From NCBI GenBank assembly GCA_002011735.1, contig MTOQ01000086.1, positions 1 to 43,782 of the forward strand: a stretch of DNA of 43,782 nt, read 5' to 3'. The notes under the pieces were generated by a model that was not told where the DNA came from, did not search any database, and saw only the letters and a list, made by a program, of their open reading frames with translations. Made by a program: the position numbers and the translations under genes. Positions 1 to 43,782 of the stretch are shown here, piece by piece. The DNA comes from Nitrospirae bacterium JdFR-81 (GTDB lineage Bacteria > Nitrospirota > Thermodesulfovibrionia > UBA6902). The number at the start of each line of letters is the position of its first letter. The first letter of the stretch is position 1.

Positions 1-53
1 GGGTGTACCTCCTTTCTTTAAATTTTGTTTTTTAATCAATGGAGGATACACCC
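1..53 (-). promoter_or_regulatory. Inverted repeat able to hide the transposase ribosome binding site
   Basis: Bases 1-12 (GGGTGTACCTCC) and 41-53 (GGAGGATACACCC) are complementary with a single one-base bulge. In a minus-strand transcript the GGAGG of the ribosome binding site would be locked in the stem. Such fold-back structures are known in IS10 and IS200, where they stop read-through transcripts from being translated into transposase. The same role here is an inference from position. Confidence 0.5.
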
Positions 54-100
54 TATTTTTATATTTCTCAAGATTTTTACACAAAATATTTTACGCTACC
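1..100 (-). mobile_element. End of an IS256-family-like insertion sequence; transposase lies off the window edge
   Basis: Read on the minus strand, the block begins at base 100 with GGTAGCGTAAAATATTTTG followed by TGTAAA. This resembles the terminal repeats I recall for IS256-family (mutator-type) elements, which commonly start GGTAGTGT and carry TTTTGTGTAAA. About 85 bases inside it stands a strong ribosome binding site, AAAGGAGG (bases 15 to 8), and the window ends seven bases after it, where a start codon would be expected. So the element's left end is here and its transposase should run leftwards outside the window. No transposase residues are visible, so the family rests on the terminal repeat alone. 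Confidence 0.6.
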
Positions 101-42740: not shown

Positions 42741-43643
42741 TTAATCTTTTTTATTAAACCTCATCTCATATATAATCTCGTCCTGCTTTTTGTTGATCCT
42801 TCGGGCTATATCGATCTTATTCGGGTGATCCTTTAGTATCTGTTCACACATCTTCAGGGCCTCTTCATACCTTCCCATCTTCATGAGGGTGTCTGGTAAG
42901 AGGACAACGGCCGCTGGGCCCCAATATGAAGGGTCCTGCTCATATGCCTTCTTGAGATATTCAAAAGCCTTCGCCCAGTCTTTTCTTTTTCTGTAGACCT
43001 TTCCCATCTCATACAGGACATCTATACTTTCTGGATATATTTTAAGGGCCTCTCCATAATGCACCTCTGCCTTGTCAGTATCCCCTGTCTTCATATAGAA
43101 GTCTCCTATCAGCCAGTGCATGGAGAAAGGGGATATGACAAAGAAGGTTAACATTGCCAGGATGGGACCAGCGCTTGCTGAGATGCCCCAGAATATCTTC
43201 TTTGATGCAGACTCCCTCTTACCGCGAAACCTTCCCACTATCAGTTTCATCGTCATACCCATGGGTAATAGCCCGAAGGGGATGACAAGCAGTGGATACA
43301 CCCTTGAGGCCGTGATGGTTGGCGAATAGTAGTATAGAAGGGTTGCTGTGAGTAAGATCAAGAAGACACCCATGGCAGACAATGGGATTATCAATGTATC
43401 CACCATGGCATCCTTAGGTGGATACTCAAGGACCTTCCCAAGTGACGGGTCAATAGATGCCCCCTTTGCATTGGCTATCAGAAATCGCACCACATCCTGA
43501 TATTGTTTATTTGCAGAAGGCAGTATGTTGAGCCTTCGTTCCTTCCCCTTAGTGTCAGTGTAAACAACGGTTGTTGCACCGTATCCTGCGATTACAAGAG
43601 CCTGGTATTGGAGGGCCTTTACATTATCCCATGGAATGATCAT
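42741..43643 (-). CDS. PH-like/TPR membrane protein, 5' end removed by an insertion sequence
   Basis: The first visible ATG (43643) gives 300 residues, but the frame continues upstream in register with NEEGIQKRK to an in-frame stop at 43683, exactly where the insertion sequence begins, with no start codon or ribosome binding site. So the true N-terminus was lost. What remains is the second half of a PH-like domain (MIIPWDNVKALQYQALVIAG), two to three membrane segments (about 80-170), and a run of TPR helix pairs (HYGEALKIYPESIDVLYEMGKV, WAKAFEYLKKAYEQDPS, YEEALKMCEQILKDHPNKI). It would be a membrane scaffold; with its start gone it may be dead. Confidence 0.75.
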   Translation of the reverse strand: MIIPWDNVKALQYQALVIAGYGATTVVYTDTKGKERRLNILPSANKQYQDVVRFLIANAKGASIDPSLGKVLEYPPKDAMVDTLIIPLSAMGVFLILLTATLLYYYSPTITASRVYPLLVIPFGLLPMGMTMKLIVGRFRGKRESASKKIFWGISASAGPILAMLTFFVISPFSMHWLIGDFYMKTGDTDKAEVHYGEALKIYPESIDVLYEMGKVYRKRKDWAKAFEYLKKAYEQDPSYWGPAAVVLLPDTLMKMGRYEEALKMCEQILKDHPNKIDIARRINKKQDEIIYEMRFNKKD

Positions 43644-43682
43644 TTTTCGTTTCTGTATGCCCTCTTCATTTAATATCCATCC

Positions 43683-43782
43683 TCAGTAGTGTCCGCTAAA
43701 AAATTATCATAAGGCTTGAAACCTCTGTCAAAGGTGATAGAATATCACCTGTACAACCAATAATGACAGGAGGTTCAAGCCA
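43683..43782 (+). mobile_element. Left end of a second insertion sequence, family not assigned
   Basis: The segment from about 43683 interrupts the PH/TPR gene. It begins near TCAGTAGTGTCCGCTAAAAA; a TGTCC-C-rich terminal repeat followed by an A-run is seen at ends of several IS families, but I do not assign one. At 43768-43773 an AGGAGG precedes the last base (an A) by the eight-base spacer TTCAAGCC, so an ATG should start the transposase at the window's final base. Confidence 0.5.
43713..43781 (+). promoter_or_regulatory. Long hairpin hiding the second transposase ribosome binding site
   Basis: GGCTTGAAACCTCTGTCA (43713-43730) pairs with TGACAGGAGGTTCAAGCC (43764-43781), with two one-base bulges. 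The AGGAGG site is inside the right arm, so it is sealed when the stem forms. A second perfect hairpin, GGTGATA/TATCACC (43733-43749), lies within the loop. Confidence 0.65.

Follow-up and report, generated by a model that had tools for sequence, protein, structure and literature searches.

IS10 and IS50, two members of the IS4 family, are the textbook cases of transposase genes shielded from outside transcription: an inverted repeat near the left end of the element covers the ribosome binding site with its 3′ arm, while its 5′ arm lies outside the native mRNA, and the fold-back leader silences read-through RNA while sparing the native message. A related device is carried by IS200, whose transposase is unrelated to that of the element studied here. 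The tnpA leader of Salmonella IS200 contains a stem that blocks access to the ribosome binding site (PMC12594629, PMC3196728) and a further stem terminates impinging transcripts (PMC3196728), while in ISPpu9 a 5′-UTR structure conceals the transposase start and is opened by an antisense sRNA (PMC8450116). The promoters of IS10 have also been described (PMC5006887).

We analyzed a 43,782-nucleotide stretch of DNA (the window) that makes up the whole of one contig (C14) in a 2.05-Mb, 95-contig genome, and whose last 99 bp (43684–43782, + strand) are the left end of an element that we assign to the IS4 family. By analogy, this end would carry a read-through-blocking leader of the kind known from IS10, IS50, and IS200, and the device itself is not new, but the leader looks here like a shared, co-evolving trait in a large group of related elements. 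In silico, the ribosome binding site of read-through RNA is covered by a stem, as in leaders of that kind, and the native mRNA is predicted to lack the 5′ arm; it is the 3′ arm that overlies this site, as in IS10 and IS50. Unlike in those two elements, no antisense RNA overlapping the leader is evident in the sequence here. The studied element also belongs to a different transposase group and has CA rather than NT ends (PMC2266710). It shares with IS200 the leader stem over the transposase ribosome binding site (PMC12594629, PMC3196728), but we found in it no terminator-like site corresponding to the transcript-ending stem of IS200 (PMC3196728), and whereas the ISPpu9 leader is opened by an antisense sRNA (PMC8450116), here a predicted promoter would bypass the stem. 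We consider it highly probable that a fold-back stem closes off the transposase start site and that this stem arises exclusively in RNA coming from outside the element.

The insertion sequence, its copies and its relatives

The studied left end closes 15 contigs and is absent elsewhere in the genome, each copy breaking off about 100 bases in. Over the 97–100 bases present, the copies are 99–100% identical, and the element boundary was placed where their flanks diverge. The window stops before the transposase gene, its last bases being CCA where the other copies read CCAT. Reading all 190 contig ends, we found the corresponding right end (CACTACTGTCCGCTTAAAAT) at 16 of them, and an exact 9-bp duplication pairs 6 of the 15 left ends—the window's copy included—with a right end; the remaining 9 have no exact 9-bp duplication partner among the 16. 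In the window the target-site duplication is ATCCATCCT (43675–43683), an exact match between the left flank (contig end C14E) and a right flank (C72E), so that its second copy lies on contig C72, where this insertion has its right end. The left terminal inverted repeat, CAGTAGTGTCCGCTAAAAAATTA (43684–43706, + strand), matches the right end as well as the ends of relatives. The copies, the paired ends and the duplications together establish that the studied element is a multi-copy insertion sequence (IS) beginning at 43684.

The interior of the element, transposase gene included, is missing from the assembly, and neither DDE_Tnp_1 (PF01609) nor DUF4372 (PF14294) has a match in its own genome. 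The smallest of the contigs analyzed measures 2502 bases, and a collapsed IS-sized contig would presumably have been excluded. That two ISs bound the window, a coincidence on which the initial annotation had drawn, is an assembly effect of the kind that repeats produce, because the window is a whole contig and, at repeated ISs, contigs in this genome end about 100 bases into the element. Two other repeat clusters, D1 and D2 (e.g., C7S, C5E), with ends GGTTAGGACATAGTATCCACC and GGTTGAGACATAGTATCCACC, take up 30 and 25 of the 190 contig ends, so that the fragmentation of this genome is mainly due to repeats; one copy of D1/D2 type (C18E) is inserted within a right end of the studied element.

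Relatives point to an IS4-family insertion sequence with a transposase of the DUF4372 plus DDE_Tnp_1 type. Leader relatives at 80–91% identity were found in four genomes of the class (L117–L120), and one of them (L119/L046) reads AGGAGGTTCAAGCTATG at the same Shine-Dalgarno and runs on through the arm into an ATG and a DUF4372-like remnant frame (MSHHNIIYNQLLHLIPRHQF...), the remnant (L046) matching the start of DUF4372 at E 5e-4, under the curated cut-off. A degenerate coding pattern for that DUF4372-like start yielded 27 stretches from 84,980 species genomes. Both full relatives run against Pfam contain DUF4372 plus DDE_Tnp_1 (the latter at E 4e-31 and 1e-26), and the one run against NCBIfam matches transpos_IS4_1 (E 1e-76). 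Complete relatives are 1262–1276 bp long (n = 5 measured; the studied element's own length is not in the assembly), 9-bp duplications flank two of these five, and the encoded proteins have 370–383 aa. A YREK motif can be recognized by eye in relatives (such as YKARWQVELFFKWIK in L161), the studied element's own gene being unassembled.

Target duplications in the IS4 family are about 10 bp long (PMC2266710), and the 9-bp duplications of the studied element agree with this. The IS4Sa subgroup is tabulated with CA------T ends, duplications of 8–10 bp, and sizes of 1150–1750 bp (PMC2266710, Table 1); the studied element has the same ends (left CAGTAGTGT, right CACTACTGT), which together with its 9-bp duplications agree with this subgroup. 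In that paper the passages on IS4Sa mention no fold-back leader, the main text has 0 occurrences of "secondary structure", "ribosome", or "stem", and a literature search returned no paper on such a leader for the DUF4372/IS4Sa group, which is weak evidence of absence.

Across 41 genomes (the element's own and 40 relatives), the leader was found outside its own genome as one end fragment in one genome. An exact leader search had no match in genome_contigs or viral_contigs, the coding pattern had none in viral_contigs, and a phage collection gave none, while a plasmid collection gave a single weak match that was left unused. Rfam returned no match in the window, and Pfam assigned no family to the C-terminal peptides of the studied element and of the element at the left edge of the window. 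In one relative (L118, G333:C89) the leader has an extra palindromic stretch (TCTACGACTCGTAGA) directly 5′ of the Shine-Dalgarno, and its contig likewise stops inside the IS.

The leader stem and the predicted promoter within it

The initial annotation had described an AGGAGG at 43768–43773 sealed in an 18-base stem with an additional inner hairpin. The AGGAGG (+ strand) is indeed the Shine-Dalgarno of the transposase gene, judging from the sequence and from L119, and both the fold and a duplex test place the arms at the same positions, 43713–43730 (GGCTTGAAACCTCTGTCA) and 43764–43781 (TGACAGGAGGTTCAAGCC; both + strand), though these 18-nt arms form only 17 pairs, with one bulged base per strand. 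The inner hairpin (43732–43750, + strand) was also recovered, with 8 pairs (43732–43739 with 43743–43750) and a loop of 3, and its palindrome is identical in L119 and nearly so in L117 and L118. Within the stem lie the Shine-Dalgarno and everything from there to the start codon, beside which the 3′ arm ends.

The minimum free energy of the leader is -32.1 kcal/mol, compared with -15.8 (sd 2.9) in 200 dinucleotide shuffles (z -5.6), no shuffle being as good. When the start region is kept fixed and the upstream part shuffled, p = 0.002, which is the floor of the test. The 34 host-gene starts in the window, taken as control, show no comparable start-region pairing (2 with p ≤ 0.05, 0 with p ≤ 0.01), and the right end of the studied element folds like shuffles (z -0.2).

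A consensus scan predicts an inward promoter inside this structure (score p 0.005 vs. shuffles), although the model is that of E. coli. It comprises a -35-like hexamer, TTGAAA (43716–43721, + strand), within the 5′ arm, a 16-base spacer, and TAGAAT (43738–43743), the latter belonging to an extended -10 (TGATAGAAT, 43735–43743, + strand) that overlaps the inner hairpin and recurs at the same site in relatives. Transcription is predicted to start at about 43750, downstream of the entire 5′ arm. The initial annotation thus overlooked that the 5′ arm likely lies upstream of the start of the element's own mRNA, an overlap of arm and promoter that is predicted to recast "translation control" as a specific filter against read-through RNA.

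In the mechanism we propose, RNA from a neighboring promoter would have both arms and would for that reason form the stem, which would shut off the ribosome binding site together with the start region, leaving the transposase untranslated. The element's own promoter, whose -35 falls within the 5′ arm and whose -10 follows shortly after it, would instead begin the native mRNA past the 5′ arm; starting after that arm, the native mRNA could not form the stem, and the transposase would be translatable. The expected benefit to the element would be low transposition inside transcribed genes.

These predictions are consistent with the folding energies, RNA from the predicted native start to the contig end having only -2.0 kcal/mol vs. 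the -32.1 kcal/mol of read-through RNA, and with the probability that the Shine-Dalgarno is unpaired, which is 0.17 in read-through RNA and 0.56 in native-start RNA of the window leader. Among 36 leaders of relatives (assembled as described below), median openness of the Shine-Dalgarno is 0.56 in native and 0.23 in read-through RNA and rises in 29 of 33, the other 3 having no native value since the predicted start falls beyond the Shine-Dalgarno. Truncating any leader increases openness slightly, and the same truncation in the 34 host genes raises it from 0.52 to only 0.60. In 30 of the 36 leaders the whole 5′ arm precedes the predicted start, whereas in 4 the predicted start comes before the arm. 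Sigma-70-like promoters on the + strand reach p ≤ 0.05 in only 8 of 36, being weak in many relatives beyond the constant -10. That -10 is an extended one located 49–52 nt from the element end in 13 of the 24 elements with short leaders, the window's included (shuffle mean 0.07, max 2).

The constant position of the -10, downstream of the 5′ arm, also bears on whether the stem is confined to outside RNA. If the stem were present in the native mRNA too, it could act as a general translational brake to be opened by an sRNA, Hfq, or the ribosome, as proposed for ISPpu9; structured transposase leaders that conceal the start are described for ISPpu9 (PMC8450116) and IS200 (PMC12594629), and the transcription start of the studied element is a prediction. 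We nevertheless regard such a brake as unlikely, given this fixed -10 and the good promoter located within the stem, and favor a stem formed only in RNA from outside.

It counts against the proposal that the neighboring gene in the window is directed away from the element, as is the nearest ORF at 8 of the 15 copies, though a host ORF is directed into it at 7. The consensus scan additionally marks a possible outward promoter, TTGACA-17-GATAAT (43703–43731, − strand; 11 of 12 consensus bases, p 0.005 in this copy), that could drive the gene at 42741–43643 (− strand), whose start codon is 40 bp off; by eye, the signals are weaker in L117–L119.

Arm complementarity across relatives

For comparison we collected 49 leaders, of which 36 were kept after reduction at 85% identity. 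Dropped were four of the 27 coding-pattern loci—L149, with no start codon, and L158, L165, and L169, with no end found—and, from 30 PF14294 loci, L092, L093, L096, L108, L109, L110, L111, L112, L113, L114, and L115, where the scan gave no Shine-Dalgarno plus ATG (the exception being L112, with a 38-residue frame only). L094 was kept despite a doubtful end assignment, and the remnants L117, L120, and L121 (the last being the same stretch as L160) were left out of the leader set.

Relatives with differing arm sequences maintain the complementarity of their arms, a second point overlooked at first. Paired with each other, a leader's own arms average -17.8 kcal/mol across the 36 leaders vs. -11.2 for swapped arms, with 0 of 20,000 permutations as good, a count that overstates significance and is not a true probability, as the relatives share ancestry. 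When the start region is fixed and the rest shuffled, arm pairing reaches p ≤ 0.05 in 26 of 36 leaders, compared with 2 of the 34 host genes; 10 leaders miss this threshold, and 21 of the 24 relatives with short leaders (85–105 nt) reach it. The condition that the initial annotation had set for refutation, an absence of stems from other copies or families, thus fails. That the complementarity is a chance feature propagated by the copying of one element we consider extremely improbable: the 15 near-identical copies in the genome do count as one, but it is strongly disfavored by the host-gene control and by the swap test, which drew on 36 leaders of divergent sequence.

In a table of 24 elements, registered by hand with the register picked by eye, the 8 pairs adjoining the start codon are formed in 175 of 192 cells vs. 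a mean of 109 (max 138) with swapped partners, and each of the 8 positions has at least three Watson-Crick pair types. Compensating arm changes are apparent by eye, with GGCTTGAA/TTCAAGCC in the window element, GGCCTGAT/ATCAGGCC in L172, GGTCTGAT/ATCAGACC in L166, GGCTTAAATCTC/GAGATTTAAGCC in L168, and GTTGAGTCC/GGACTCAAC in L101 vs. GTTGAGCCC/GGGCTCAAC in L103. A MAFFT alignment of 19 leaders (A1) misaligned some arms by eye, and no pair counts were drawn from it. Of the 24 short-leader elements, 21 have a 5′ arm beginning 25–31 nt from the element end, and nearly all have a 3′ arm that stops ≤3 bases from the start codon. Other DUF4372 elements follow a second, less regular layout in which the leader measures about 140 nt and the arm lies near the gene.

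The arms could alternatively be DNA sites, half-sites for the transposase or a repressor, with the RNA stem as a by-product. Such sites would fit a -10 lying within a palindrome, and A-C mismatches that are not rarer than G-U pairs: the non-Watson-Crick core cells of the 24-element table comprise 11 A-C and 4 G-U, an excess that is not expected from RNA pairing alone and comes from few independent cases. DNA sites are nonetheless quite improbable, in our view more so than the general brake, since complementarity persists while arm sequence varies and the 3′ arm keeps so close to the start codon. Right ends also lack the arm, the longest match to the 5′ arm being 4–6 bases in the right ends of 5 complete relatives and 5 bases in that of the studied element, and binding sites were rejected as the main explanation on this ground. 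As an observation on the table itself, A-C mismatches in the arm core are G-U on the opposite strand.

Extending the outside-only stem from this element to the whole DUF4372 branch is a broader proposal, to which we would give even chances. One stretch of DNA about 28 nt from the end would then have two roles, as -35 of the transposase promoter and as the arm silencing any transcript from outside; its partner would sit at the start codon, and the two would have co-evolved across phyla. ISs of unrelated kinds within this genome would have arrived at a similar solution, and insulation against read-through would be general and predictable at IS left ends, where it could help to locate true transposase starts. 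The finding itself takes a control that is textbook for IS10 and IS50 beyond a handful of laboratory elements and into a broad natural group, and its evidence is evolutionary, namely compensating changes in the two arms, instead of the genetics of one element. If the reading is true, the arms at left ends could serve to annotate promoters and transposase starts where an IS is unassembled, and the insulation may be part of the reason why ISs attain dozens of copies without activation by host transcription.

Fold-back leaders in other repeats of the genome

The left-hand edge of the window (1–100, − strand) is the left end of another element, whose terminal inverted repeat (GGTAGCGTAAAATATTTTGTG) runs from 100 downwards and whose arms (41–53 and 1–12, by fold and duplex test) lie over an AGGAGG. 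Its left end is present 10 times in the genome and its right end 12 times, and duplications of 8–9 bp provide 8 of the 10 left ends with a partner. The initial annotation held that both elements, despite their different ends, hide the ribosome binding site in the same way, and this was borne out: in a 101-base copy of the left-hand end the stem has z -4.2 and duplex p 0.001, next to the z of -5.6 for the studied element. A third repeat type (C63E/C69S) has 13 consecutive pairs, TACCTCCCGTACC/GGTACGGGAGGTA (duplex p 0.001). By eye, the place of the promoter relative to the arm is less clear in the left-hand and C63E/C69S elements.

The further suggestion that such control may be widespread in the ISs of this genome proved partly true. 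Three repeat types have the stem, whereas the IS-like ends D1, D2, E, F, and G, where start codons were not located, fold no better than shuffles (z 0.56 to 1.96), so that fold-back leaders are present in several, not all, of the repeat types examined.

The third IS-like left end reads GGTAGTGTAACATTAATTGTGTC (C63 end, L215; C69 start, L221), and its perfect 13-bp stem lies over a GGGAGG before an ATG, with the reading frame after the stem beginning MKDTKEILPFF.... Elsewhere in the window, the gene at 258–2405 contains a 36-bp stretch repeated in frame (985–1020 and 1054–1089; 69 bp apart), and the 33-bp insert between the repeats, which contains a palindrome (TGGTGGTT...AACCACCA), is perhaps a small mobile hairpin with a target duplication.
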